A stretch of DNA of 64,000 bases from Microbacterium proteolyticum (GTDB lineage Bacteria; Actinomycetota; Actinomycetes; Actinomycetales; Microbacteriaceae): positions 1,302,001 through 1,366,000 of the forward strand of contig NZ_CP121274.1 in NCBI RefSeq assembly GCF_029639405.1, given 5' to 3'. A program made the translations under genes and the position numbers. Shown in pieces: positions 1 to 13,028 of this stretch. Under the pieces are notes generated by a model that searched no databases, was not told the origin of the DNA, and was given only the letters and a program-made list of their open reading frames with translations. How positions within the stretch are numbered: the first letter of the stretch is position 1; each line of letters starts with the position of its first letter.

Positions 1-1
1 T

Positions 2-184
2 CGCGGCTTCGAGACCTACCGTTCCTGCGGGCAGGGGTTCTGCGGCTCCTGCGTCGTCGGTGTACGCGGGGGAATCCCCGATCACCGAGATGACTATCAG
101 TCGGACGCCCAGCACCGTTCGAACGCGATCATCAACGTGTGCGTCTCCCGCTCCCGCACCCCGGTCCTCGAACTCGACCTCTGA
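2..184 (+). CDS. C-terminal end of a [2Fe-2S] oxidoreductase (partial)
   Basis: The last 60 codons of a gene that begins left of the window, read in frame from base 2 to a TGA. The fragment has the plant-type [2Fe-2S] pattern C-x4-C-x2-C-x29-C (cysteines at fragment residues 9, 14, 17 and 47) and ends in TPVLELDL. That ending and the PDHRD segment are typical of the ferredoxin domain at the C-terminus of phthalate-dioxygenase-reductase (PDR/VanB) type flavin oxidoreductases, which pass electrons from NAD(P)H through FMN and the cluster to an oxygenase. The flavin and NAD domains lie outside the window, so the partner oxygenase is unknown. It converges on the next gene with only 3 bases between the stops. 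Confidence 0.8.
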   Translation, partial: RGFETYRSCGQGFCGSCVVGVRGGIPDHRDDYQSDAQHRSNAIINVCVSRSRTPVLELDL

Positions 185-187
185 GCG

Positions 188-787
188 TCAGGCGTTCATG
201 ACGGCCAGCATGACGGCCATGCCGGCGCCCATCAGGATGTAGCAGCCGTCGTGGAGGTCGCGCCCGCGCGAGCGGATGAGTCGCACCGCCCACCAGAGCG
301 CCGCGGCGGCGCTCAAGGCGATGAAGACGACGTTGAGGGCATCAGCCCAGCCGGGCGTGGCCATGAGCATCGACTCGTCGCCCCCGCCGTGATGATGCCC
401 GCCTTCCCCGGCATCCATGTCCATTCCGGCCATCAACAGGGGCATCGCCGCGAGCATCCAGATCATCGCCGCATTGAGAACGATGTGCGCCGCGGTCGAG
501 ATGCGATCCGATACCCGCTGCGTCGCCAGGGAGGGAATGAGGGCGAGCGCGAAGATCGCGAACACCGCGATCTGCGCCCACGTGGCGGCATCCACCACCG
601 AGACCCACACCATCACGATCATCGCCACGCTCATCACGAGGTGATTCGCGTCGACGATGGTGTGGTGCGCCAGGCCGTCGTGGGTCTCGTTTCGGGTGCG
701 GCGGTGGCGAACGAGGTCGACGATGCACCACAGTGCGGTGACGCTGAAGGTCGCCGTCAGGATCAGGTTCCACGGGGAAGAAAGCAC
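188..787 (-). CDS. DUF5134-like membrane protein, Met/His-rich
   Basis: A 199-residue membrane protein with five to six hydrophobic segments, resembling the actinobacterial DUF5134 family of unknown function. Between two helices (about residues 121-142) is a loop rich in Met, Asp and His (GMDMD, then HHH, then MLM), suggesting binding of a soft metal such as copper. The GTG start sits 15 bases from a TCTAC-N5-GTAGA-like operator shared with the divergent PepSY gene. No Shine-Dalgarno is evident, so the message may be leaderless or nearly so. Neighbourhood and shared operator suggest a role in copper handling (inference). Confidence 0.65.
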   Translation of the reverse strand: MLSSPWNLILTATFSVTALWCIVDLVRHRRTRNETHDGLAHHTIVDANHLVMSVAMIVMVWVSVVDAATWAQIAVFAIFALALIPSLATQRVSDRISTAAHIVLNAAMIWMLAAMPLLMAGMDMDAGEGGHHHGGGDESMLMATPGWADALNVVFIALSAAAALWWAVRLIRSRGRDLHDGCYILMGAGMAVMLAVMNA

Positions 788-802
788 GCGGTCAGTTTAT
801 TA

Positions 803-815
803 CTACACTTCGTAG
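803..815. promoter_or_regulatory. BlaI/CopY-type operator in a divergent promoter
   Basis: Inverted repeat CTAC-N5-GTAG between the divergent DUF5134 and PepSY genes. It matches the stronger copies near 8.25 and 12.31 kb (TCTAC-N5-GTAGA, spacer ending in C). On the minus strand it runs into TAGTAATAA, a plausible -10, so a bound repressor would block RNA polymerase. The likely binder is the BlaI/CopY-type repressor encoded at 3143-3511. Confidence 0.55.
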
Positions 816-843
816 AGATCGCACCTTCGACCCTGGAGTAGGC

Positions 844-2289
844 ATGACCACCACAGACACCGCGCCCTCGTCGTCGCCTGCGGAAGGCGAGCCGCCGCCT
901 CGTTCCGTCCCCGTTTCCCGGCGCCCCACCAATTGGTTCGGCGCATTCTGGCGCTGGCACTTCTACGGCTCGCTCATCGTCATCCCCGTCCTGTTCGCTC
1001 TGTCGGTGTCCGGCATGACCTACATGTTCCGGGCTCAGGTGGACGCCTGGACGCATCCGGGTGTCCTGACCGTGTCCGTGCCGGCGGGCGCCGAACGACT
1101 CCCGCTCTCGCAGCAGGAAGCGGCGGTCCGCACCGCCTTCCCGGATCGGGAGATCCTGTCGGTGACCGACAATTCCGGCGACCGTGCAACGGTCTTCGTC
1201 ACCGCGGTGGGTGAGGGCAGCAGGAACGTCTACGTCGATCCGTATGACGCGTCGATCACCGGTGATCTGCACATCGACGATCTCGTTTCGACCTGGGCGG
1301 AACGCGTCCACGGAGATCTGCTTCTGGGGGACGGCGAGGTCGGCGATCGCATCGTCGAGCTCGGTGCCAGCTGGGCGATCGTGCTCACCATCACCGGTTT
1401 CATCATCTTCTTCCTCGGCCGGCGGCCCAGAAAGATCGCGGTGGCGAAACGTGCCCGGGGAGCACGATTGAGGAGCTGGCACGGTCTCGTCGGGCTCCCG
1501 GTCGGGCTGGGAATCCTGATGCTCGTGGTTTCGGGCCTCCCTTGGACGGGTGTGTGGGGCTCCCTCGCCTCCTCCGTCGCATCCGGAACGGGAGACTCCC
1601 TCTGGGGTGATGACCCGGGCGCCGAGTCGACGGTGAAGGAGCAGATCGAAGCGAGCAACGGTTCATCGAGTCCGGCGGGGTGGGAGGTGGCTGACCTACC
1701 CACCGCGACCAGCACCGGCGCCGGCGCGTCGATCTCCATCGACGTCGCCACCGCCACCGCCCGCGCGGAGGGGGCGCCGGAACCGTATTTCGTCACCTAC
1801 CCCGAGGGGGAGACGGGCGTCTACAGCGTGTTCGGATACCAGTGGGCGAATAACGGCAACCCCGCGGAATCCGACGTCACGCTCCAGAAGACCGTGCACG
1901 TCGACCAGTACTCCGGCGAGGCGCTCGCGGTTTACAGCTACGACGATCTCTCCGTGCTGTCCAAGACCGTCGCGAATGGCATCGCCATCCACGAAGGTCG
2001 TCGCTTCGGGCCGATCAACACGATCCTCACGACACTGTTCTGCCTCGCCGTGCTCTTCATGTGCGTCTCCGCGCCGATCATGTGGTGGACACGTCGGGGC
2101 AACGCGTCGGGTCTCGCCGCACCGCGGGCCAGGCTGCCCCTGTTCGCGAACGTGATCCTGCTGGTCGCGGTCATCGGGCTCGGCATCTTCCTGCCGCTGT
2201 TCGGGTTGTCGTTGCTCGTCATCCTCGCGCTGGATCAACTGGTGATCCGCAGAATCCCCGCGGCGCGCAAGTTCTTCGGAACGGTCTAG
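844..2289 (+). CDS. PepSY-domain membrane protein (PiuB-like)
   Basis: A 481-residue PepSY-associated membrane protein. There is one membrane helix after a short N-terminal tail (about residues 41-62), a large extracytoplasmic part with PepSY-like segments, further helices in the middle and two helices near the C-terminus. Such proteins occur in iron- and copper-regulated loci and some are thought to be membrane reductases or metal-uptake accessories; the activity of this one is unknown. It shares an operator region with the divergent DUF5134 gene and converges on the M56 protease. A role in reducing or delivering metal is inference from context. Confidence 0.75.
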   Translation: MTTTDTAPSSSPAEGEPPPRSVPVSRRPTNWFGAFWRWHFYGSLIVIPVLFALSVSGMTYMFRAQVDAWTHPGVLTVSVPAGAERLPLSQQEAAVRTAFPDREILSVTDNSGDRATVFVTAVGEGSRNVYVDPYDASITGDLHIDDLVSTWAERVHGDLLLGDGEVGDRIVELGASWAIVLTITGFIIFFLGRRPRKIAVAKRARGARLRSWHGLVGLPVGLGILMLVVSGLPWTGVWGSLASSVASGTGDSLWGDDPGAESTVKEQIEASNGSSSPAGWEVADLPTATSTGAGASISIDVATATARAEGAPEPYFVTYPEGETGVYSVFGYQWANNGNPAESDVTLQKTVHVDQYSGEALAVYSYDDLSVLSKTVANGIAIHEGRRFGPINTILTTLFCLAVLFMCVSAPIMWWTRRGNASGLAAPRARLPLFANVILLVAVIGLGIFLPLFGLSLLVILALDQLVIRRIPAARKFFGTV

Positions 2290-2296
2290 TCGAGGG

Positions 2297-2328
2297 CGGG
2301 TGGGTGGGGTTCACGCCCTGCCCACCCG
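2297..2328. terminator. bidirectional hairpin terminator
   Basis: Perfect 8-bp stem CGGGTGGG / CCCACCCG with a 16-nt loop in the short gap between the convergent PepSY and M56 genes. There is no T-tract, as is common in high-GC actinobacteria. Confidence 0.5.
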
Positions 2329-3138
2329 TTACGACGTGTAGATCGCGGAAACGGGCGCCAGCCGCCGGGCCGGCGCCCATTTCTGCGCCGTGAGGCGATC
2401 CGCTCTCATCTCCATCGCGACGTCGCCCGTCCGCTCCGAAATGACCGCGAGCGCGTTCGCGAGATGGACCGCGCCCGCGCGACGGGCCGCGTCGTCGTCC
2501 GCGATCAATTCGACGAGCAGTCTTGTCGCGACGAGCAGGCGACGACCCGAGCGAAGAAACGGCACGCACGCGCGATAGAGCTCGGCCGCGCGGACGGCGA
2601 GGTAGTGATGGCCGCGCAGGTGAGCGCGCTCATGCGCGACGACGGCACGGAGCTGCGCGGGGGTGAGCGCCTCGCGAAGCCCCCGAGACACCACGACCGC
2701 TGCGTCGCGGCCGGGGAGGGCGCACGCGAAAAGCTCTTCGGTCTCGCACGTGAGCAGGAAGGCCCCTCGATCCAGACGTGCGCGGGAGTGCGGGATCGCC
2801 AGCACCGCTCCGTACGTCGTCGAGCCCGCGCCGGCCGTTTCGTCCGAACCCGCGGCGATGGTGACGACCACCGCTCCGACGGCGCCGAGCGCCGCCCACC
2901 CCGCCACCGTTTGAATGACTGCCGCAGTCTCTGATGCGATCGACGGCGCCGACAGGGCGAGACCGACGGAGATCACGACGGAGGCCGCGAGAGAGGCCAC
3001 CCCGAGCAGCAACGTCGCGTGCCACATCCCGAGTGCGGTACGCGGGTGGTGGATCTGCCACCGTCCGACCGTGAGAAGCCGCGCGCCTGTCCACCACGAG
3101 GCGAGCGCACCGAGCAGGCAGAGGCCGACGAGGACCAC
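2329..3138 (-). CDS. M56 family membrane metallopeptidase (BlaR1-like)
   Basis: A 269-residue membrane protein with about three N-terminal helices and a zinc-protease motif HERAH (about residues 169-173, in the context VVAHERAHLRG), followed by another hydrophobic stretch. M56 proteases paired with a BlaI-family repressor form signalling couples in which the membrane protease inactivates the repressor. The GTG start chosen lies 4 bases beyond the repressor stop, so the two form an operon. Compared with BlaR1 it has no penicillin-binding sensor domain, so the signal is not a beta-lactam; given the surrounding copper genes it may be a metal (inference). Confidence 0.75.
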   Translation of the reverse strand: MVLVGLCLLGALASWWTGARLLTVGRWQIHHPRTALGMWHATLLLGVASLAASVVISVGLALSAPSIASETAAVIQTVAGWAALGAVGAVVVTIAAGSDETAGAGSTTYGAVLAIPHSRARLDRGAFLLTCETEELFACALPGRDAAVVVSRGLREALTPAQLRAVVAHERAHLRGHHYLAVRAAELYRACVPFLRSGRRLLVATRLLVELIADDDAARRAGAVHLANALAVISERTGDVAMEMRADRLTAQKWAPARRLAPVSAIYTS

Positions 3139-3142
3139 GGCG

Positions 3143-3511
3143 TCAGCTTCGGCGATCGAGGGCCGAGCGCAGCATCTCCACCTCGTCGGTGGACAGGTCG
3201 CCCGCGAACTGCAACAGCGCCGCTCGCCTGTCATCACTCCCGCCGAGGGCGGCACGCATGGATTTGCTGGCACTCTCGGCAGCCGAGGAAGTCGGGCTGA
3301 ATCGCATCCGTCGGGGGGATTCAGCGTGGCGCGCGACCTCGCCCTTGTCCACGAGTCGATCGAGTGCCGTCAGGATCGTCGTATACGCCGGACGCGGCGC
3401 GGAGAACTCTTCCTGCACGTCGGCCGCGCTCACCGGCTGGGGGTGGCGTCGGAGAATGGCGAGGACCTCGCTCTCGAGTTCGCCTCGGCCCCTGCTGCGA
3501 ATTCCACTCAT
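3143..3511 (-). CDS. BlaI/MecI/CopY-family transcriptional repressor
   Basis: A 122-residue winged-helix regulator with the BlaI/CopY layout: a DNA-binding domain in the first 75 residues and a helical dimerisation tail. ATG is chosen because AAGGAGG precedes it by 5 bases; an in-frame start farther upstream would add poorly conserved residues. It is the first gene of a repressor-protease pair and is divergent from the copZ-copD-copA operon. CopY regulators of this family release DNA on copper; the cysteine hook of classic CopY is not visible here, so signalling probably goes through the M56 protease. Likely targets are the CTAC-N5-GTAG sites of this region. Confidence 0.8.
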   Translation of the reverse strand: MSGIRSRGRGELESEVLAILRRHPQPVSAADVQEEFSAPRPAYTTILTALDRLVDKGEVARHAESPRRMRFSPTSSAAESASKSMRAALGGSDDRRAALLQFAGDLSTDEVEMLRSALDRRS

Positions 3512-3571
3512 CCCGGCCTCCTTCCGACATGCTACGTCCCTCCCCGACTTCCGTGCTCCAGGGTCGACCTT

Positions 3572-3588
3572 GAACGACATGACGTAGA
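3572..3588. promoter_or_regulatory. degenerate BlaI/CopY half-site
   Basis: The gap between the divergent repressor and copZ contains one good half-site, GTAGAG. The other half, five bases away, is poorly conserved (3 of 6 positions). It could allow weak autoregulation and control of copZ, but is much less certain than the copies at 803, 8246 and 12308. Confidence 0.3.
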
Positions 3589-3617
3589 GTTAACAGGGTT
3601 CCGATGAACGGTGAGGT

Positions 3618-3827
3618 GTGACAGTGCAGACGGAGATCGTCATCGAGGGGATGACCTGTGAGCACTGCGAGCACGCGGTGGGACAGGCGCTGACAGCTGT
3701 CGGCGGTATCACCTCCGTGTCTGTCGATGCGGAAGCCGGCATCGCCGTGATGGAGCACGAGGGTCCCCTCGCTGCGGATGCCGTTGCTGCGGCCGTCGCA
3801 GAGGCGGGTTACAGCGTCGGCGAGTGA
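3618..3827 (+). CDS. copZ: CopZ-like copper chaperone
   Basis: A 69-residue heavy-metal-associated (HMA) domain protein with the copper-binding motif MTCEHC (Cys14 and Cys17). Proteins of this size carry Cu(I) in the cytoplasm to the copper ATPase or to a sensor. The GTG start is followed by a full HMA fold with no extension. Its stop overlaps the start of the next gene by 4 bases (GTGA), so copZ, copD-ctaG and copA are translationally coupled. The gene diverges from the BlaI/CopY-type repressor. Confidence 0.9.
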   Translation: MTVQTEIVIEGMTCEHCEHAVGQALTAVGGITSVSVDAEAGIAVMEHEGPLAADAVAAAVAEAGYSVGE

Positions 3828-5878
3828 GTACGACGTCGACGGAGCTCGCCGGATACACGGAGCGTCGCATCCGCAGGTCGCCCGGGGTGATCGCCGTGAT
3901 CGCCGTGGTCACCCTCCTGCTCGCCGTCGCGGTGCCCGTCGGGTTCACGGTCGGGTGGGGGGACACCGGGTACCGGATGCTGTCCCGCGGATACCCGGGT
4001 GAGCTCACCGCGATCCTGTCCGCGTCCTTGAGGATCATCGTGGACCTGGCGTGGTGGACGGTCGCGGGCTGTCTCGTCTCGGTGCTGGGCGTGCTCGCCG
4101 CGCCACGGAAGACCTCCGTGTCGGTCGATGCGAGTCTCGAACTCCGTGTCCTGCGAGCGGCGCTCCTCGTGTGGATGCTGGCTGCGGCCGCGTTGGTGCC
4201 TGTCGACGCGGCCGACGCGAACGGCCTGGGGATCGATCGGCTCGCGGAGCCGGGAGCGCTGAGCTACCTCGTCGAAGCGGCGTACCTGCCCAAGGCCTGG
4301 CTCTTCGTGTTCTTCGCCGTGATGGTGGCCGCCGTGATCTCCTACGTGGCCGATCGATGGGCGACGCTCCTGCCCGTCGCGCTCCTCGCGTCGCTCTCGG
4401 CCCTCGCACCGGTTCTCGTGCATCAGGTGCAGGTGGGGGCGGATCACGATTTCGGCTCGGATGCCGCGATCTTCCAGACCCTCGCATCCGCGGTGCTCTT
4501 CGGCACCGTCCTGATGCTCTTCGTCCGCCTCGTCAGCGGTCGTCTGCTGCGACCCGTCGCCCTGCACCGTGCCCGATGGGTGTGCACGGTCAGCTGGTTC
4601 GTCGTCGTCCTCTCGGATGCCGTCCTCGGCGTGTTCAAGCTGTCCGGCCCGCTCGAGGGCAACGCCACCGTGGCGCTGCTCGCGATCCGCGTCGGCATCC
4701 TCGCCCTCGTCGGCGTGTTCCTCGCCTCCTGGTGGATCGTGCGGCGCCGCCTCACCGACCGTCGGATCTTCGTCGGCGGCAGCGTGCTGGTGGTGCTCGG
4801 GGCGGCGTTCTTCGGCCTCTCCGTCGCGATGACACGCGTGCCGCCGCCGCAGTACTTCGTCGTGACCAACACCTCGCAGATCTTCTTCGGCTACGACATC
4901 ACGGAGATCGCCCCGACGATGGAGGTTCTGGTCACGCACTGGCGACCGAACATCCTCTTCCTCGTCCTCTCCGTCGCGGCCATCGCCGTATACGTGTCGG
5001 CCGTGGTGAGACTGCGCCGACGGGGGGATCGCTGGCCGGCCGGTCGGATCGTGGCCTGGATCCTCGGGTGGCTCGTTGTCATCATCGCCACGAGCTCCGC
5101 GATGGGGCAGTACGCCGGAGCGCAGTTCGGCACGCACATGATCGTGCACATGAGCCTGAACATGCTGGCTCCCGTGCTCCTCGTGCTCGGCGGCGTCGTC
5201 ACCCTCCTCCTCCGAGCGACGGTCTCCCACTCCAGGAATCAGCCGGCCGGTCCGCACGAGTGGATCACCGCCGTGCTGCACTGGCCGGGCACGCGCTTCA
5301 TCTACAACCCGATCATCGTCTTCATCGTCTACATCGGTTCGTACTACGGCCTCTACCTCACGCCGCTGTTCGAGAACATCATGAGGTACCACTGGGCGCA
5401 CCAGGCGATGAACGTGCACTTCCTGGTCGTGGGATACCTCTTCTACGGTCTCGTCATCGGCGTGGACCGCCCTCCGCGTCCGCTCCCGCCGATCGGCAAG
5501 CTGGGGTTCGTTCTCGCCGCGATGCCCTTCCACGCGTTCTTCGGTGTCATTCTGATGACCGCTCCCACCCCGCTCGCCGAGAACTTCTACCGCACCCTCG
5601 ACTTCCCCTGGATGGGAGACCTCATGGTGCAGCAGTATCTCGGCGGCGGTGTCGCCTGGGCAGGCGGGGAGCTACCGCTTCTGATCGTCGTCATCGCCCT
5701 CGGCATCCAATGGGCGCGGCAGGATCACCGTGAAGCGACGCGCAAGGACCGGCACCTGGACACCGGCGTCGACGACGAATTCGACGCGTACAACCGGATG
5801 CTGACCGAACTCGCAGAACGCTCGCAGCGACAGGCGGGCCCCTCTCTCGCCCCACCGCCCCCGAAGGAGAGCCGATGA
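3824..5878 (+). CDS. CopD/CtaG fusion copper membrane protein
   Basis: A 684-residue polytopic membrane protein. The N-terminal half matches CopD-type copper-resistance/import proteins; the C-terminal half (about residues 370-640) matches CtaG of caa3-type cytochrome c oxidase assembly, with conserved His-containing segments such as HMIVHM and HWAHQAMNVH. Fused CopD-CtaG proteins are common in actinobacteria and are thought to move copper across or within the membrane for cuproenzyme assembly. It overlaps copZ upstream and copA downstream by 4 bases each, giving one tight operon. Confidence 0.85.
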   Translation: MSTTSTELAGYTERRIRRSPGVIAVIAVVTLLLAVAVPVGFTVGWGDTGYRMLSRGYPGELTAILSASLRIIVDLAWWTVAGCLVSVLGVLAAPRKTSVSVDASLELRVLRAALLVWMLAAAALVPVDAADANGLGIDRLAEPGALSYLVEAAYLPKAWLFVFFAVMVAAVISYVADRWATLLPVALLASLSALAPVLVHQVQVGADHDFGSDAAIFQTLASAVLFGTVLMLFVRLVSGRLLRPVALHRARWVCTVSWFVVVLSDAVLGVFKLSGPLEGNATVALLAIRVGILALVGVFLASWWIVRRRLTDRRIFVGGSVLVVLGAAFFGLSVAMTRVPPPQYFVVTNTSQIFFGYDITEIAPTMEVLVTHWRPNILFLVLSVAAIAVYVSAVVRLRRRGDRWPAGRIVAWILGWLVVIIATSSAMGQYAGAQFGTHMIVHMSLNMLAPVLLVLGGVVTLLLRATVSHSRNQPAGPHEWITAVLHWPGTRFIYNPIIVFIVYIGSYYGLYLTPLFENIMRYHWAHQAMNVHFLVVGYLFYGLVIGVDRPPRPLPPIGKLGFVLAAMPFHAFFGVILMTAPTPLAENFYRTLDFPWMGDLMVQQYLGGGVAWAGGELPLLIVVIALGIQWARQDHREATRKDRHLDTGVDDEFDAYNRMLTELAERSQRQAGPSLAPPPPKESR

Positions 5879-8154
5879 GCACCTCCGTTCCTCCCGTCAC
5901 CGAGGCGCCGACCGCCGTCGAACTCAACATCTCGGGGATGAGCTGCGCCGCGTGCGCGGGACGCGTCGAACGTGCCCTCAACCGCATCGACGGCGCCGAC
6001 GCCGTCGTCAACTACGCCACCGAGCGCGCCGTCGTGACCGGCTTGCAGCCCTCTCGCTTCGATGAGGCGGTCGCTGTAGTCCGGAAGGCCGGCTACGGGG
6101 CGGAGGTGCGCGTCGACGCCTCCGACGAGTGGACCAAGCGCAGCAACGAGAACCGGATCACCGGCCTGCGCCGTCGGCTCATCGTCGCGGCTCTTCTCAC
6201 GATCCCCCTCATGGACCTCACGCTCATCCTCGCCCTCGTGCCGGGATGGCGCTTCCCGAACTGGGAGCTGGTGTGCGTCGCCTTGGCGCTGCCCATCGTC
6301 ACGTGGGCCGCCTGGCCGTTCCACCGGGCGACTCTGCGAAACCTCCGTCACGGTGCCGTGAGTATGGACACCCTCGTCTCGCTCGGCATCGCCGCGTCGT
6401 TCGGATGGGCCCTGGTGACCGTCCTGTTCGGGTCGGAATCGGCCGGCTACTGGATCGGGTACGGCCCGACGCCGCCGGGGGCGAACGCCATCTATCTCGA
6501 TGTGGCCGCGGGCATGACCACGTTCCAGCTCGCGGGGAGGTACTTCGAAGCGCGATCCCGTCGGAAGGCGGGCGACGTGCTCGATGCGCTCGCCGCGCTG
6601 GCGCCCGCGACGGCGCGGGTCCGTCGCGACGGACGGGATTCCGTCGTGGCGATCTCGGACGTCCGCTCCGGCGACACCGTCGTCGTCCTCCCGGGCGAGA
6701 CCATTCCCGTCGACGCCCTCGTCGTGGACGGGTGGGCTGCCGTGGACACCAGCCCGATGACGGGTGAGCCGGTACCCCGCGAGATGGGACCGGGTGCGAC
6801 TGTCATGGCGGGCACGATCAACACGAACGGCAGTCTCGTCCTCTCCGTCACCGCGGTGGGGCCGCGCACGCAGCTGGCGCAGCTGGCGGCTCTCGCCGAG
6901 CGGGCCCAGGAGTCGAAGGCTCGCATCCAGTCGCTCGTAGACCGGATCGTCCAGTGGTTCGTTCCCGTGATCGTCGTCCTCGCTGTCCTCGTCACGATGG
7001 GATGGCTGCTCTCCGGCGCGCAACCCGCTCACGCGATCTCGATCGGGGTCGCCGTGCTGATCATCGCGTGCCCGTGCGCCCTGGGACTCGCTACGCCGAC
7101 CGCTCTCATGGTCGGGGTGGGGAGGGGTGCGCAGCTGGGCGTGCTGATCAAGGGTCAGGGTGCGCTGGAGGCGTCCGGTCGTGTCGACACGGTCGTCCTC
7201 GACAAGACCGGCACGCTCACCGAGGGCGTGATGCGCGTCGTCGACGCGGTGACCCGCGAAGACGTCCCCTTGCACGTCGTTCTGGCGATGACGGGAGCTC
7301 TCGAAGAGAGCTCCACCCACCCCGTCGGCGCAGCCCTGGTCGGCTACGCGAGAACCTCCGTGGCCGACTTCCCCTCCGTCACCGGCTTCCGGGTGCTTCC
7401 CGGACTCGGCGTACAGGGCAAGATCGACGGCGACGTGGTCGCCGTCGGAGGTCCGCGCCTCATCGCGCACTTCGACGCGGCCATCGCGGGGCGATTGCGA
7501 GAGGCCGTCGATGACGCGCGGGCGAAGGGCGCCTCTCTGATCGTGTCGATCAGGGAGGGGGAGGTGCTGGCGGTGTTCTCGCTGGAGGACCAGGTCAAGA
7601 AGACCGCCGCTTCCGCGATCGCCGCCATCGCCGCGCGCGGGATGCGCACCATCCTCCTCACGGGCGACGACGCCGCCGCCGCCGAGCGGGTGGCGACGCA
7701 CGTCGGCATCGCCGACGTGCAGGCGGAGAAGACACCGGTCGAGAAGGCCGCCTTCATCGCGTCGCTGCACGAGGCCGGACACCGCGTCGCGATGGTCGGC
7801 GACGGGATCAATGACGCCGCCGCGCTCGCGACAGCCGACCTGGGCATGGCGGTCGTCTCCGGCACGGACGTGGCGTTGAAGTCGGCCGACATCATCCTCG
7901 TTCGGGATGACCTCACCGTCGTCGCAGACGCCATCGGCCTCTCCCGGCGCACGCTGCGGACGATCCGCGGAAATCTCGTCTGGGCGTTCGGGTACAACGT
8001 CGCAGCAATACCGCTGGCGGCCGCCGGTCTGCTCAACCCTCTGGTCGCCGCAGCGGCGATGGCGCTGTCGTCGGTCTTCGTCGTCTGGAACAGTCTGCGG
8101 CTCAGGAACTTCGCGGCGCACCGGCCCGAGGTGGTCGAGGCGGACGTCCTCTGA
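5875..8154 (+). CDS. copA: copper-translocating P-type ATPase CopA
   Basis: A 759-residue P1B-type ATPase. One N-terminal HMA domain carries GMSCAAC (Cys24 and Cys27), followed by eight membrane segments, the intramembrane CPC motif (Cys399-Pro-Cys401), the phosphorylation motif DKTGT (Asp443) and the GDGIND hinge. CPC plus the Cu-type HMA identify a Cu(I) exporter that uses ATP to pump copper out of the cytoplasm. It is the last gene of the copZ operon and starts inside the preceding stop (ATGA). No truncation or missing motif is apparent. Confidence 0.93.
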   Translation: MSTSVPPVTEAPTAVELNISGMSCAACAGRVERALNRIDGADAVVNYATERAVVTGLQPSRFDEAVAVVRKAGYGAEVRVDASDEWTKRSNENRITGLRRRLIVAALLTIPLMDLTLILALVPGWRFPNWELVCVALALPIVTWAAWPFHRATLRNLRHGAVSMDTLVSLGIAASFGWALVTVLFGSESAGYWIGYGPTPPGANAIYLDVAAGMTTFQLAGRYFEARSRRKAGDVLDALAALAPATARVRRDGRDSVVAISDVRSGDTVVVLPGETIPVDALVVDGWAAVDTSPMTGEPVPREMGPGATVMAGTINTNGSLVLSVTAVGPRTQLAQLAALAERAQESKARIQSLVDRIVQWFVPVIVVLAVLVTMGWLLSGAQPAHAISIGVAVLIIACPCALGLATPTALMVGVGRGAQLGVLIKGQGALEASGRVDTVVLDKTGTLTEGVMRVVDAVTREDVPLHVVLAMTGALEESSTHPVGAALVGYARTSVADFPSVTGFRVLPGLGVQGKIDGDVVAVGGPRLIAHFDAAIAGRLREAVDDARAKGASLIVSIREGEVLAVFSLEDQVKKTAASAIAAIAARGMRTILLTGDDAAAAERVATHVGIADVQAEKTPVEKAAFIASLHEAGHRVAMVGDGINDAAALATADLGMAVVSGTDVALKSADIILVRDDLTVVADAIGLSRRTLRTIRGNLVWAFGYNVAAIPLAAAGLLNPLVAAAAMALSSVFVVWNSLRLRNFAAHRPEVVEADVL

Positions 8155-8158
8155 GCGT

Positions 8159-8221
8159 CCGGGCGCGGTTTCGTCGTCGCCCGGGTGCGCCGAAGGCGGG
8201 CTCGGTGACGACCTGCCCGCC
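8159..8221. terminator. two consecutive hairpins after copA
   Basis: Stem CCGGGCG / CGCCCGG (8159-8184) and then GGCGGGC / GCCCGCC (8195-8221), just past the copA stop. These GC-rich hairpins without a T-tract are likely to end copA transcription. Confidence 0.45.
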
Positions 8222-8245
8222 CTCGGTTATGAAGTTGTGCCTTTA

Positions 8246-8262
8246 CTCTACAACACGTAGAG
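8246..8262. promoter_or_regulatory. perfect BlaI/CopY-type operator without an obvious gene
   Basis: CTCTAC-AACAC-GTAGAG, the best operator copy in the window, with 6-bp perfect arms. It lies between the 3' ends of copA and of a minus-strand small gene, so no recognised gene starts next to it. On the minus strand it continues into TAGAGTAAA, mirroring the -10-like TAGAATAA of the importer promoter, so a short antisense or non-coding RNA toward the copA 3' end is possible. Confidence 0.5.
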
Positions 8263-8288
8263 AAAAGGTTCCGGGGTTCGGCGCGATC

Positions 8289-8465
8289 TCATCGGAGCGA
8301 GACCCAGGCGGCGAAGCAGACGAGGGAAGCCGCGACCAAGGCACCGGACACGACCAGCCAGCGACGAGACGTGGCGGATGGCTGCCCCCGGACGAGCGCG
8401 ATACCGGCGATGATCGCGCCGGCAAGGGCGAGCAGGAGTCCGAGGAGGCCGGTGGCTAGCGCCAT
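8289..8465 (-). CDS. small two-helix membrane protein
   Basis: A 58-residue protein starting at an ATG, with two hydrophobic helices (about residues 4-25 and 37-55) separated by a basic turn. No family recognised. It lies 67 bases beyond the isonitrile-hydratase-like gene on the same strand, so it could be the last gene of the importer operon. An upstream in-frame start would add 20 Arg/Pro-rich residues that look non-coding. Function unknown. Confidence 0.5.
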   Translation of the reverse strand: MALATGLLGLLLALAGAIIAGIALVRGQPSATSRRWLVVSGALVAASLVCFAAWVSLR

Positions 8466-8532
8466 GTCCGTGGGGTTCTCTCTCGGACGTGGGCGTCCGC
8501 GAGGGCGCGATCCTCGCGGCAGCATGACTCGC

Positions 8533-9366
8533 TCATCGGGCGGTGAGCTCCTCTACGAGAGGGGCGAGGAAGTCGCGTGACAGTGCCGTCAGCGCGGGGC
8601 CCGCTGCCTCAGGGCTGCCGGAATCGAACGGGGGTTCCGGCGCGTACTCCGCCCCCAAGACCGTGAAGCGCGCGTACTCCTCCCCGCACATCTTCGCGAG
8701 AAGTCGGATCGCGAGGTCCATCCCGGCGGTGACGCCGGCGGCCGTCATCCGGTTACCGTCCTCCACGACTCGTTCGTCGACGTCGATCGCGCCGTAGCCC
8801 GGGAGGAGGTGGCGGACCGACCAGTGCGACGTTGCGCGCCTGTCCTTCAAGAGGCCGGCGGCGGCGAGGGCGATGGAACCGGAGCACACGCTCGTGACGA
8901 ATGCCGCCTCCGCCCCCCACGCGGCCAGCGACGCTATCGCCCGTCGATCGCGGAGCAGGATGCCGGTGTCGCCCCCGGGCACGAGGATGACCGTGGGGTC
9001 GGCGGGCGCCTCGTCGAGTGTGAGAGTCGGAACGAGGGCGACGCCGCCGCCGCTGGCGACGGGCTCGAGCGTCTCCCCGGTCGTGACGAGTTCGACACGG
9101 GCGCCCGTCGCGTTCAGGAAGTGCAGGGGACCCACCACGTCGAGAAGCTCGAATCCCGGGTGGAGCACGATCACGATCACGGCCTCGGTGGCGAAGGTCA
9201 CCCCCGGGAGTTCCTCGAGGGCGTGGTGAGCGCGCACGGATCGGTCGATGGCTCGCTTCTTCGCGAGGTCGTCGTCTGCGGCGGTGAACAGCGTGCTGAG
9301 GGACGGTGCGTCGGAGTTGTGGATAGGGCTCGCAGGGGTGCGGTCCACCCCGTTGTCAGCGCTCAT
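8533..9366 (-). CDS. DJ-1/PfpI protein resembling isonitrile hydratase
   Basis: A 277-residue protein with a 65-residue N-terminal extension and then a full DJ-1/PfpI domain. It resembles bacterial isonitrile hydratase (InhA), which hydrates isonitriles to N-formamides: a nucleophile elbow TSVCSGS (Cys161), a downstream RRATSHW, an ITAGID-like VTAGMD, and the conserved C-terminal EYAPEPPFDSGSP. ATG is chosen because AAGGAA precedes it; the start lies inside the end of the ABC ATPase gene, so it is the fourth gene of the importer operon. The placement suggests a task inside the cell on the imported compound, for example opening an isonitrile metal chelator (inference). Other DJ-1 proteins act as glyoxalases or stress hydrolases. 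Confidence 0.75.
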   Translation of the reverse strand: MSADNGVDRTPASPIHNSDAPSLSTLFTAADDDLAKKRAIDRSVRAHHALEELPGVTFATEAVIVIVLHPGFELLDVVGPLHFLNATGARVELVTTGETLEPVASGGGVALVPTLTLDEAPADPTVILVPGGDTGILLRDRRAIASLAAWGAEAAFVTSVCSGSIALAAAGLLKDRRATSHWSVRHLLPGYGAIDVDERVVEDGNRMTAAGVTAGMDLAIRLLAKMCGEEYARFTVLGAEYAPEPPFDSGSPEAAGPALTALSRDFLAPLVEELTAR

Positions 9367-10186
9367 CGTTGGTTCCTTCCAGAGGTGGGTCGGCAGGGGC
9401 GGGGTCATCGTGGGTACTCCCGCTGGCATACATCAGCTGCAGGTGTCCGGTCAGGGGATTCCGGACAGCCGTCGCGAGGACTCCGAAGACGTCGTTCAAG
9501 TTCTGTGGCGTGAAGACGTCCTCCGGTGTTCCGAACGCCACGATTCGGCCCTCGCGCAGCATGGCGACCTCATCGCAGTACGCGGCGGCGAGGTTGAGCT
9601 CGTGGAGGGTGACGAGCGTTGTGACCTCGAGATCGCGGATCAGGTCGAGCAGGTGCAGCTGGTGCCGGATGTCGAGGTGGTTCGTCGGTTCATCCAGGAT
9701 CAGGACCTGGGGTTCCTGGGCCAGGGCGCGGGCGAGGTGCACGCGTTGACGCTCCCCGCCGGACAGCGTGCTCACGTGTCGGGACGCGAGGGGGAGGACG
9801 CCGGCCTGGCGGAGCGACCTCTCGATGATCGCCCGGTCGGCTGACTGATCGGCGAGGAGGAGACGACCGTGCGGGAGTCGGCCCGTGCGGACGAAGTCTT
9901 CGACGGTGAGGTCCAGATCGACGGGGCCGTCTTGGACGACGGCGGCAGTCACCCGCGCGGCTTCGCGTGCGGGTGTCGTCCACACGTCGCGTCCATTGGT
10001 GCGCACCCGTCCCTCCGCGGGTCGGATGGCTCGATAGATCGTGCGCAGCAGCGTGGACTTCCCGCTGCCGTTCGGGCCCACCAATCCGACGATGTTGCCC
10101 TCGGCGCCGAGCGTGACGTCGTCGACGATGCGATGCCCCCCGAGGTCGACACTCACCCCGTCCACGTGCAGCGTGCCCGTCGTCAC
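9356..10186 (-). CDS. FecE-type ABC transporter ATP-binding protein
   Basis: A 276-residue ATPase with Walker A GPNGSGKST (about residues 37-45), signature LSGGERQRV, Walker B LILDEPTNHLD and the H-loop TLHELN. This is the pattern of the FecE/BtuD family that drives import of siderophores, heme or cobalamin. The GTG start overlaps the permease stop (GTGA) and the gene overlaps the next one by 11 bases, so permease, ATPase and hydratase are one operon. It supplies energy to the permease encoded just upstream. Confidence 0.9.
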   Translation of the reverse strand: MTTGTLHVDGVSVDLGGHRIVDDVTLGAEGNIVGLVGPNGSGKSTLLRTIYRAIRPAEGRVRTNGRDVWTTPAREAARVTAAVVQDGPVDLDLTVEDFVRTGRLPHGRLLLADQSADRAIIERSLRQAGVLPLASRHVSTLSGGERQRVHLARALAQEPQVLILDEPTNHLDIRHQLHLLDLIRDLEVTTLVTLHELNLAAAYCDEVAMLREGRIVAFGTPEDVFTPQNLNDVFGVLATAVRNPLTGHLQLMYASGSTHDDPAPADPPLEGTNDER

Positions 10187-11262
10187 GCGCCCACCGCCTC
10201 GCGCCGGCCCGACCGGCGCAGGAGCCAGAGAAAGAACGGGGCGCCGACGATCGAGGTCAACAGGCCCACGGGTACTTCCGTGGGCGCGAGGAGGGTGCGC
10301 GCAGCGATGTCGACGACGACCAGGAGCAGTCCTCCCGCCAACGCGGAGCCGATGACCACCCACCGGTGGTCCGATCCGAGGACCATGCGGACAGCGTGCG
10401 GTACCACCAGCCCGACGAAGCCGATCGCACCGCTGACGGCGACGACGGTGCCCACGAGGAGTGAGGTGATGACGAAGAGCACGAGGCGCACGCGGCCGAC
10501 GTCGACGCCCATGCTGGCGGCCGTTTCGTCGCCGGTGAGGAAGGCGTTCAGAACGGGAGCGAGGAGAACAAGCAGGACGGTGGCCAGGACGAGGACCGCC
10601 GCGGGGATGCCGAGGTCGCTCCAGGTCGCGGCGGCGAGGCTGCCGGCGAGCCAGGAAAGCACCCCGCTGACGCCCTGGTTCGCCGCGCTGGATCGCAGGA
10701 CGAGGTAGCTCGTCACCGAGCTCAGGAGGTAGGACACGGCGACCCCCGCGAGGACGAGTCGATTCGGCGTCACGCGGCCGTTCTGCTGGGCCAGGAGGAA
10801 GACCGCCAGCGTCGTGACCAGCGCACCGACGAAGGCTGCGGCGGGAGTGGACACGGCCGCGAGAGCGCCGGAGGTGACGGTGAGTGCGGCGACGGCCGCC
10901 ACCGAGGCCCCCGATGACACCCCGAACACGAAGGGGTCCGCGAGCGGGTTGCGCACCACCGCTTGGAGGACGGCCCCCGCGACGGCCAACGCGGCGCCCA
11001 CCACGAGCGCCAGCAGTGCGCGCGGCAGGCGGAACTCCCAGACGATGCGGTCCTCGAGCCCCGTCGAGGAGCCGCTGCTCCAGGGCCACAGGTGGCTGGT
11101 GACCACCTCGATCACCCGCGTCGGGGCGATGGCGACGCTTCCGATTCCCACGGAGAGGATGACGGCGAAGGCGCACGCGGCCGCCAGGATGACGAGCGCA
11201 CTCCGCGGAGATCGCCGGACGAGGGAGGTCGTCCGGCGATCGGCCGAGGATCCCACGCTCAC
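10183..11262 (-). CDS. FecCD-family ABC transporter permease
   Basis: A 359-residue polytopic permease with about nine to ten helices and the family hallmark GAALAVAGAVLQAVVRNPLA-like segment, plus the cytoplasmic GFVGLVVPHAVR motif. FecCD/BtuC permeases form homodimeric channels for metal chelates or vitamin B12. It overlaps the binding-protein gene by 4 bases and the ATPase gene by 4 bases. The compound carried cannot be read from the permease. Confidence 0.9.
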   Translation of the reverse strand: MSVGSSADRRTTSLVRRSPRSALVILAAACAFAVILSVGIGSVAIAPTRVIEVVTSHLWPWSSGSSTGLEDRIVWEFRLPRALLALVVGAALAVAGAVLQAVVRNPLADPFVFGVSSGASVAAVAALTVTSGALAAVSTPAAAFVGALVTTLAVFLLAQQNGRVTPNRLVLAGVAVSYLLSSVTSYLVLRSSAANQGVSGVLSWLAGSLAAATWSDLGIPAAVLVLATVLLVLLAPVLNAFLTGDETAASMGVDVGRVRLVLFVITSLLVGTVVAVSGAIGFVGLVVPHAVRMVLGSDHRWVVIGSALAGGLLLVVVDIAARTLLAPTEVPVGLLTSIVGAPFFLWLLRRSGRREAVGA

Positions 11263-12281
11263 GAGGTGGGAACGGTGAGCTGAAGATCGGGGTGGAGAGC
11301 GTTGGCGATCTTCGTGAGTCCGACCATGACGGAGATCGAGGAGTCGGTCTCCTGTGTGGGGACCTCGCTGATCCGGCCGTCCTTCACGGCTCGCATCTCA
11401 GGGAAGTTCTCCTCGAGGAACTGCTTCTGGGAGGCGAAGTCCTGCCCTTCGAAGGTGCCGACGAGGATGGCGTCCGGATCGGACGCCGCGAACTCCTCCT
11501 TGCTCACGTAGATGGCATCGGAGGGGAAGACGTTCTCGCCGCCCGCGGTCGTGATCAGGCTGTCGTACACGCCGCCGGCCAAGACGATGACGGGACCGGT
11601 CCCGCCGTTGAAGTAGGCGGTCTTCACCGTCGGCTCACCGGCGACGGCCTGCACGACCGCCTCTTTGTCGGCGTTGAGCCGGTCGATCACCTCGTCGGCT
11701 TTGTCGGAGACGTTGAAGATCTTGCCGAGGTCGCTCAGTGTCTTCGCCGCGGTGTCGATGGACCAGGCGTCGGTCTGCGCGTCAGCAGACGTGCAGAGGT
11801 TCGCTCCGTAGACCGTCACCCCCGACTGTTCGAGCTCTTCCACGGAGGCGTATCCCTGTGAGGCGTCGAAGGCGAAGCCGTCGAGGACCTGGCCGGCGAC
11901 GAAGTCGGGTGCCTGGCTGAGAAGGACCTCTTTGGAGGGGAATCCCATGGATGTGCCGATGGACGTGAGTCCCTGTGCCTGCTCCGCCACCGACTCCGGG
12001 TACGGAGCGTAGTTCCCTTGGACGGCGACGATGCGATCCCTCAGGCCCAGGGCGAGGAGCTCTTCTGTCACCGACTGCCAGAGGCTGACGACACGCTGCG
12101 GCTCGGCGTCGATGGTGAGCGTCCGTCCGCAGTTCTCGATGCTCACGGGGTACCCCGTAGCGGTCGACGGGGAACTCTCGGACGAGGGGGACGATGTGTC
12201 GCCCGCGCAGGAGGTGACGATGAGGGTCAGTGCGGTGATTGCCGTGACGCTGGCGACAAAGCGCCGGGGAACTGAGAACAT
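11259..12281 (-). CDS. FecB-type metal-chelate binding lipoprotein
   Basis: A 340-residue ABC substrate-binding protein with a lipoprotein signal peptide ending in TSC (Cys25) and a type III (FecB/FepB) fold, recognisable from NCGRTLTIDAEPQRVVSL and the mid-protein helix. It would be lipid-anchored outside the membrane and hand its ligand to the permease. The promoter carries a strong BlaI/CopY-type operator 27 bases before the ATG rather than a recognisable iron box, so the ligand may be a copper complex (inference). Ferric siderophore, heme, cobalamin or the actinobacterial F420-precursor importers are alternatives for this fold. Confidence 0.85.
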   Translation of the reverse strand: MFSVPRRFVASVTAITALTLIVTSCAGDTSSPSSESSPSTATGYPVSIENCGRTLTIDAEPQRVVSLWQSVTEELLALGLRDRIVAVQGNYAPYPESVAEQAQGLTSIGTSMGFPSKEVLLSQAPDFVAGQVLDGFAFDASQGYASVEELEQSGVTVYGANLCTSADAQTDAWSIDTAAKTLSDLGKIFNVSDKADEVIDRLNADKEAVVQAVAGEPTVKTAYFNGGTGPVIVLAGGVYDSLITTAGGENVFPSDAIYVSKEEFAASDPDAILVGTFEGQDFASQKQFLEENFPEMRAVKDGRISEVPTQETDSSISVMVGLTKIANALHPDLQLTVPTS

Positions 12282-12307
12282 GGGACTCCTGTCGCTGGAG
12301 CCCTTAT

Positions 12308-12322
12308 TCTACGACACGTAGA
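12308..12322 (-). promoter_or_regulatory. BlaI/CopY-type operator at the importer promoter
   Basis: TCTAC-GACAC-GTAGA, 27 bases upstream of the FecB-type gene. On the minus strand it merges with TAGAATAA, a close match to a -10 box, so repressor binding would occlude the promoter. Arm sequence and 5-base spacer match the copies at 8246 and 803. Confidence 0.65.
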
Positions 12323-12399
12323 GATCAACGACTCGCCCTTGCTCCCCCGTCTGCGCGGCGTCACACTCGAGCGATGGGCCGATCTTCCGTGAGCGACGC

Positions 12400-12555
12400 A
12401 TGACCGTCCTCGGGCTTCTGGCTCAGTGCGGTGCGTTGTTCTTCGTGATCCTGTGGATCGGGCTGACGGACGGGGGTCCGGGCTGGTCCATTCGCGGCGG
12501 CCTCGAGCGCGGACGCGAAGGCCTTCGGAAGCGTTTTCCTCGCCGCGTCCCGTAG
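12400..12555 (+). CDS. possible small one-helix membrane protein
   Basis: A 51-codon frame from ATG to TAG in a 340-base stretch otherwise without genes. It would encode a hydrophobic N-terminal helix (residues 2-22) followed by a basic tail rich in Gly and Arg. No clear ribosome binding site and no family match, so this is a weak call. The rest of the stretch holds only the importer operator at its left end and the ArsR promoter at its right end. Confidence 0.3.
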   Translation: MTVLGLLAQCGALFFVILWIGLTDGGPGWSIRGGLERGREGLRKRFPRRVP

Positions 12556-12655
12556 TGGTCGGGCGCCGCTGACCATGTGGCGGTCCTGCCCGCCCCTCGA
12601 CTTCGCCGTCCCGCCGCGCCCGCCCTTGTCCGCACGGGAGGTCATTGCTAACGTG

Positions 12656-12669
12656 CAACCAAATGGTTG
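12656..12669 (+). promoter_or_regulatory. ArsR autoregulatory operator over the start codon
   Basis: Perfect palindrome CAACCA-AA-TGGTTG that contains the ArsR start codon. A TGCTAAC element about 8 bases upstream is a plausible -10, which would put the transcription start at or near the ATG and give a leaderless message. Binding of the ArsR product here would block its own transcription. Confidence 0.5.
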
Positions 12670-13028
12670 AACAAACTGCCCCCACCGACGCCGACATCGA
12701 CCGCGTGTTCCACGCGCTGGCCGACGCGACTCGTCGCGACATCGTGCGCCGCACGCTCGTGGCCGAGCAGTCGGTGTCGGCGCTCGCCGCGGGGTACGCG
12801 ATGTCGTTCGCGGCGGTGTCGAAGCACGTCGGCGTGCTCGTCGAGGCCGGACTCGTCCGCAAGCGCGCCGACGGGAGGGAGCGTCTCGTGAGCGCCGAAC
12901 CCGAGGCGATCGCGCGCGTGCAGCGCCTCCTCCGCTCGTACGAAGACCTCTGGCGAGGACGCATCGACCGCCTCGACGCCCTTCTCGCCGAAGACCCGGA
13001 TGCCACGGCATCCAACCGACCGAACTGA
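12663..13028 (+). CDS. ArsR-family transcriptional regulator
   Basis: A 121-residue winged-helix protein that begins with the ALADATRRDIV segment typical of ArsR regulators paired with AHSA1/SRPBCC proteins. The recognition helix region is YAMSFAAVSKHVGVL. It lacks the cysteine metal-binding motif of ArsR/SmtB, so a metal signal is unlikely. ATG is chosen at the palindrome because the frame upstream is short and unconserved. The AHSA1 gene follows 18 bases downstream in the same operon. Signal unknown. Confidence 0.85.
   Translation: MVEQTAPTDADIDRVFHALADATRRDIVRRTLVAEQSVSALAAGYAMSFAAVSKHVGVLVEAGLVRKRADGRERLVSAEPEAIARVQRLLRSYEDLWRGRIDRLDALLAEDPDATASNRPN

Follow-up and report, generated by a model that had tools for sequence, protein, structure and literature searches.

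Why does an operon for a Fec-type importer and a DJ-1/PfpI protein lie beside copper genes, and what might it bring into the cell? The question is raised by a stretch of 64,000 nucleotides from Microbacterium proteolyticum (contig NZ_CP121274.1, positions 1,302,001 to 1,366,000), the whole of which is called the window here. A first-pass annotation had proposed that this Fec-DJ1 operon serves the uptake and breakdown of copper-isonitrile chelates under copper control. On the basis of the sequence comparisons below, membership of the operon in a copper regulon of a BlaI repressor and a membrane protease is well supported. That it is a copper-acquisition operon pirating a chalkophore, a copper chelate produced by other organisms, has about an even chance of being right.

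The operon and its operator

The operon runs from 12281 to 8289, all on the minus strand, and is made up as follows (aa, amino acids).

12308..12322, no strand: operator TCTACGACACGTAGA, 5' of the FecB operon; a -10-like TAGAAT overlaps it on the minus strand, as judged by eye
11259..12281, minus strand: FecB-type (Peripla_BP_2) substrate-binding protein, 340 aa, from the family scan; lipobox LIVTSCAG by eye
10183..11262, minus strand: FecCD permease, 359 aa, from the family scan
9356..10186, minus strand: FecE-type ATPase, 276 aa; the family scans ran on 271 aa
8533..9366, minus strand: DJ-1/PfpI protein of the isonitrile-hydratase-like group, 277 aa, with an N-terminal extension of about 60 aa
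8289..8465, minus strand: membrane protein (by eye), 58 aa, with no family match

The described succession of a FecB/FecCD/FecE importer and a DJ-1/PfpI gene is borne out by reading frames and family scans. Peripla_BP_2, FecCD and a FecE-type ATPase within one operon are the mark of a Fec-type metallophore importer, and the end of the ATPase gene overlaps the start of the DJ-1 gene (9366 versus 9356).

The operon was also said to share its operator with the adjacent copper genes, and this holds. The exact palindrome TCTACN5GTAGA is found twice in the window (8247-8261 and 12308-12322) and at only three places in the genome (3.97 Mb), all of them at the Fec-DJ1/copper locus within a span of 13.2 kb; by a simple estimate, the chance of three random sites falling within 13.2 kb is about 3e-5. 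It is, furthermore, conserved together with copper neighbours elsewhere. When up to one mismatch is allowed, the window contains four matches where shuffled sequences average 0.19, and four were reached by 0 of 100 shuffles. Across the whole genome, 64 such matches stand against 121 for a reversed-pattern control, that is, without enrichment, and one-mismatch operators are therefore informative through their position only. Besides the site in front of FecB, the following operators are relevant.

8247..8261, no strand: second exact operator, in the gap where copA and the operon converge with their 3' ends
G000:C2:1301131-1301145: third exact operator, outside the window and 856 bp to the left of its first position; 28 bp separate its end from the start codon of a Fer2/FAD-type reductase gene
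802..816, no strand: one-mismatch operator, between the DUF5134 and PepSY_TM genes
3574..3588, no strand: degenerate operator with two mismatches, between blaI and copZ

The site at 8247, flanked by converging genes, is not clearly within a promoter and has no obvious target gene; the best version in the blaI-copZ gap has two mismatches. No promoter-like sites were found in a sigma-70 scan of positions 1-13000, and the -10 overlap at 12308 is therefore a matter of inspection by eye only.

Conservation extends this picture beyond the window. A scan of genome contigs, in which the best 80 of 241 relatives were kept as 80 loci, yielded six loci from actinobacteria in which FecB, FecCD, FecE and DJ-1 all follow one another behind an exact operator (57-81% identity), and genome searches added three systems (G396, G154 and G989). 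Three of the loci, from Agrococcus casei, Microbacterium esteraromaticum and Frigoribacterium JB110 (L049, L050 and L051), share one layout and one DJ-1 protein sequence and were counted as one. Thus, the order is conserved in eight distinct loci including the window, with an exact upstream operator in 8/8; in L046 and L047 this operator precedes DUF5134-PepSY-FecB. BlaI, the protease, CtaG and CopA are nearby in seven of the eight genomes, in G396 at about 20-26 kb from Fec-DJ1 (L211); for L046, the BlaI assignment comes from the reading frame alone, and none of the four was seen within the 13 kb examined of L048. The other 74 of the best 80 loci, many of them truncated, show no match to FecB, BlaI, protease, CtaG or CopA at E 1e-6. 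In one of these 74, from a Rhodospirillales metagenome-assembled genome, the isonitrile-hydratase-like DJ-1 gene is immediately preceded by relatives of FecCD and FecE (L070:7806-10645).

In ten system loci outside the window (177 kb) there are 21 operators versus none in 106 comparison loci (1.95 Mb; 74 mostly proteobacterial and 32 actinobacterial, the latter 0.6 Mb), and the reversed-pattern control gives 0 and 3, respectively. This count left out the window, L001-L003, L050, L051, L212, L232 and L233 (source, duplicates and parts of system loci), as well as the small loci L004-L045 and the loci of later genome searches.

The Fec-DJ1 system is rare. DJ-1 matches below 1e-80 occur in 3 of 99 genus genomes. 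The searches at the family, order, class and phylum levels scored the best 5-6 candidates per genome, so that their counts are lower bounds: close FecB orthologues in at least 3 of 398 family genomes, with at least four more distant matches; DJ-1 orthologues in at least 2 of 396 order and at least 1 of 394 class genomes, both counts including the window's own; and, among 396 phylum genomes, no close FecB other than the window's own. FecB orthologues with 57-64% identity in Paenibacillus point to a possibly wide transfer, and the island shared by L049, L050 and L051 points to recent horizontal transfer, perhaps among cheese bacteria. A TrwC relaxase gene lies near the copper/Fec-DJ1 island in L049. 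Plasmid FecB relatives (29 records) are all below 60% identical, the best of the 20 listed reaching 37.4%, and no FecB relatives were found in viral contigs. In two proteins, P0207 and P0208, a PF01297 domain, which we take to be ZnuA-type, is joined to a relative of the window FecB (49% and 47% identity).

Copper genes and regulation

The genes to the left of the operon are the following.

5875..8154, plus strand: copper P1B-type ATPase (copA); TIGR01511 and TIGR01525 above cut-off
3824..5878, plus strand: Caa3_CtaG-domain membrane protein (PF09678), 684 aa
3618..3827, plus strand: CopZ-like HMA chaperone (GMTCEHC), named by eye from its translation, without a family scan
3143..3511, minus strand: BlaI/Penicillinase_R repressor without cysteine, from the family scan
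2329..3138, minus strand: membrane protease with HERAH, Pfam Peptidase_M48; a M56/BlaR-like role is suggested by its position beside blaI; start codon uncertain
844..2289, plus strand: PepSY_TM protein, from the family scan; candidate metal-chelate reductase
188..787, minus strand: DUF5134 membrane protein, from the family scan
1..184, plus strand: 3' end of the Fer2/FAD-type reductase gene, the remainder lying left of the window

The elements of a BlaI/BlaR-type regulon lie together here, namely a BlaI repressor, a membrane protease with HEXXH and a palindromic operator; the protease matches Pfam M48 and not M56. The partner proteases have HERAH in five cases and HERSH in one. A CopY-type repressor was also considered and rejected, since the six BlaI proteins checked contain no cysteine (6/6) and thus no CXC. 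The natural reading of the protein sequences would be release of BlaI by proteolysis, not direct copper sensing of the CopY type.

Further genomes enlarge the presumed regulon. G396 has a second FecB, preceded by two exact operators. Of three Fec systems represented in part in G154, one follows PepSY and a one-mismatch operator and two have exact operators directly upstream; G154 additionally has a CopC-CopD-YtkA gene. This is the domain set of YcnJ, to which the available part of PMC13344008 ascribes high-affinity copper import that matters when copper is lacking. The importer, CtaG and this YcnJ-like gene lead us to infer that copper starvation is the signal.

The DJ-1/PfpI protein and its possible ligand

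The three motifs that had called isonitrile hydratase to mind, TSVCSGS, RRATSHW and EYAPEPPFDSGSP, were all located in the translation. The closest solved relatives of the protein are 3ewn and the isonitrile hydratase InhA. Among 91 orthologues, drawn from the best 120 of 1636 matches, the equivalents of Asp17, Cys101, Gly103 and His121 of isonitrile hydratase (ICH; numbering assumes a chain offset of 3) are present in all 91, that of Glu180 in 90 and that of Tyr181 in 89, so that the catalytic Asp and the nucleophilic Cys of the hydratase are found throughout. Asp17 is reported as essential in ICH in the accessible part of PMC10971408. At position 102, 58 orthologues, like the window protein, have Ser and 33 have Thr. 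In a midpoint-rooted tree built from a hand-picked subset, the DJ-1 clade sides with ICH-like proteins, apart from GlxA regulators and HMA-linked DJ-1 proteins (100/99), and a GlxA/AraC-type identity was rejected on account of this grouping. The result that the first-pass annotation had named as refuting, a clustering with non-isonitrile PfpI/AraC types, was thus not obtained. Isonitrile hydration by the DJ-1 protein is plausible as a prediction. Because it has no signal peptide by eye, the protein is expected to be cytosolic.

In G154, a CopZ-like HMA domain (GLTCHGC, above the Pfam cut-off) is fused to a DJ-1/PfpI domain (L152:17541-18410). Proteins bearing both domains form two protein clusters among the best 120 relatives listed. 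The G154 fusion gene directly precedes an exact operator and a FecB gene and would thereby tie a DJ-1 protein to copper.

The suggestion that isonitrile biosynthesis is absent and the operon possibly piratical is in keeping with the genome as a whole, which has 0 matches to Condensation (PF00668) and TauD (PF02668) domains, the controls being positive in 4/14 and 1/14 genomes; piracy fits because no biosynthetic domains were found. The PvcA/DIT1 isocyanide synthase domain (PF05141) was found in 0 of 6 genomes, a result that is uninformative since it lacks any positive control genome. According to the available parts of PMC10153163, PMC9381783 and PMC9600254, copper is bound by some isocyanides of fungi and bacteria, and fungi produce some of theirs when starved of copper; foreign isonitriles are therefore a fair source.

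The following course of events may be proposed. When copper is scarce, the membrane protease would be activated and BlaI removed from the TCTAC-N5-GTAGA operators. FecB would capture the Cu-ligand complex and FecCD/FecE would import it, with reduction of Cu(II) possibly aided by PepSY_TM and/or the flavin/2Fe-2S reductase. The cytosolic DJ-1 protein would attack the ligand via the thiolate of Cys161, probably hydrating an isonitrile to a formamide, and the released copper would pass to CopZ/CtaG/CopA for the supply of heme-copper oxidase. The import of a copper chelate seems somewhat more probable than its opposite; if it occurs, isonitrile chemistry would be evenly poised. Of the first-pass proposal as a whole, the copper-linked operator and neighbourhood, the ICH-like grouping and the fit with piracy are supported, and the isonitrile nature of the ligand, its hydration by the DJ-1 protein, the binding of a copper complex by FecB and the response to copper starvation are predictions.

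Several observations weigh against copper-isonitrile piracy. The DJ-1 proteins of the operon form a monophyletic clade with a long stem (1.16), outside the clade of the Pseudomonas ICH (tree of 16 of the 91 orthologues; the residue counts used all 91, and two mis-framed genus rows were dropped). Differences from ICH include Ser for Thr102, Val for Ile152 and Ala for Gly149, among others, and the DJ-1 domain of the HMA fusion belongs to a different DJ-1 group. A crude motif and long-open-reading-frame test showed no nonribosomal peptide synthetase motif in 15 CtaG loci of the family-f6 genomes, presumably mycobacteria-like. Exact operators show no clear excess over the reversed control in the genomes G396 (5 versus 3), G154 (2 versus 2), G026 (5 versus 6) and G033 (3 versus 3), and the evidence is therefore their clustering: 5/5 and 2/2 sit at system loci in G396 and G154, and only 1/5 and 1/3 in G026 and G033. 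Finally, CopA and CopZ are usually genes of copper excess, which bears on the sign of the regulation.

The best of the alternatives, unlikely as it is, keeps the uptake of a copper chelate and replaces the isonitrile by a small amino-acid-derived metallophore, on which the DJ-1 protein would perform some other thiol-dependent cleavage. It draws on the long stem of the DJ-1 clade and on G989, where the DJ-1 protein exactly matches one from Kineosporia babensis. There, Fec-DJ1 directly adjoins not known isonitrile genes but a plus-strand operon (L231:3312-8410) for three pyridoxal phosphate (PLP) enzymes and a protein with an HMA-like end, in the form of a class V aminotransferase/cysteine-desulfurase-like protein, the HMA-like-end protein, a PLP decarboxylase and a CysK-rhodanese fusion. 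The 36-kb stretch contains five exact operators, one of them near the start of this operon, which may be for metallophore biosynthesis; the neighbourhood suggests a non-isonitrile ligand and would weaken the diisonitrile reading. This is, however, a single genome. The HMA-like C-terminal end is below the Pfam cut-off (21.4 versus 24.8), its best NCBIfam match being a copper chaperone, also below cut-off, and of 13 genomes in that family one, Kineosporia itself, yielded the protein carrying it. Two Streptomyces replicons likewise have the PLP trio as a group, with no operator and no Fec match in 29 kb, so that the link may be due to chance, and the catalytic Asp and Cys of the DJ-1 protein match ICH.

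It is improbable that the regulon answers copper stress, with the DJ-1 protein giving protection as a deglycase-like enzyme or by binding Cu, and the importer salvaging metal or ligand: the CopZ/CopA neighbours and the HMA-DJ-1 fusion would suit such a role, but the importer, CtaG and CopC-CopD-YtkA fit starvation better, and the cysteine-free BlaI proteins lack the copper site of CopY. About as improbable is that the importer takes up a different Fec-type ligand (F420-0, cobalamin, heme or a ferric siderophore) and lies in the copper regulon incidentally: although all three subunits match F420-0 models of NCBIfam best (TIGR03868/69/73), followed by BtuC, heme and siderophore models, every score misses its curated cut-off (103.7 versus 392.4 bits for the substrate-binding protein, 283.9 versus 437.35 and 277.3 versus 372.4), which led to rejection of an F420-0 transporter, the operator and copper neighbours are conserved at distant loci, and the family-scanned neighbour genes in 188-8154 include no iron, F420 or B12 enzyme.

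A wider idea can be put forward as a speculation that is unlikely as a whole. Actinobacterial BlaI/protease pairs might constitute a switch that senses copper starvation through the protease and governs a horizontally spread chalkophore-piracy regulon of Fec importer(s), redox proteins and a ligand-destroying new DJ-1 clade, which may include the biosynthesis of a new non-isonitrile chalkophore in Kineosporia babensis.

Comparison with known systems

Among the literature matches listed, a BlaI-copper-importer operon is not described in titles or abstract openings. Parts of the proposal do have relatives. The DJ-1 protein is a sequence relative of the Pseudomonas isonitrile hydratase InhA/ICH (PDB 3non, 6ni5; E ~1e-39), with which it shares the equivalents of Asp17, Cys101, Gly103, His121, Glu180 and Tyr181. 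It differs in its separate clade, its N-terminal extension, Ser in place of Thr102 and its location in an importer operon, its activity being a prediction. An isonitrile hydratase of S. thioluteus is reportedly able to act on diisonitriles.

The setting of copper acquisition is shared with the diisonitrile chalkophores, SF2768 of Streptomyces thioluteus and the product of the nrp cluster of Mycobacterium tuberculosis. In contrast to these, no biosynthetic domains were found in the window genome, and control is of the BlaI type here and by SigC there. In M. tuberculosis, nrp has ctpB in its vicinity, and induction of sigC raises both, as stated in the available part of PMC7924339. The accessible portions of the literature on mycobacterial diisonitrile chalkophores name neither an importer nor a copper-release enzyme, and PMC9600254 nowhere uses the words importer, ABC transport or hydratase. 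If true, the proposal would supply a testable importer, a ligand-destroying enzyme and a copper-linked regulator.

The copper repressors CopY/CopR are similar in their Penicillinase_R family and a TACA/TGTA-like palindrome, and CopY carries a CXC copper site (PMC7253601, available part). The window BlaI has no CXC but a protease partner, and its palindrome has a 15-base register versus RNYKACANNTGTMRNY.

Finally, import genes without biosynthesis, together with horizontal spread, are likewise seen in siderophore importers of the Fec type and in the ActinoRUSTI islands of cheese actinobacteria, as far as the accessible part of PMC5526665 goes; the word copper has no occurrences in the main text of that paper. 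The window operon is distinguished from these islands by its copper neighbours, BlaI operators and DJ-1 enzyme and, if true, would represent a case of copper piracy that parallels siderophore piracy.

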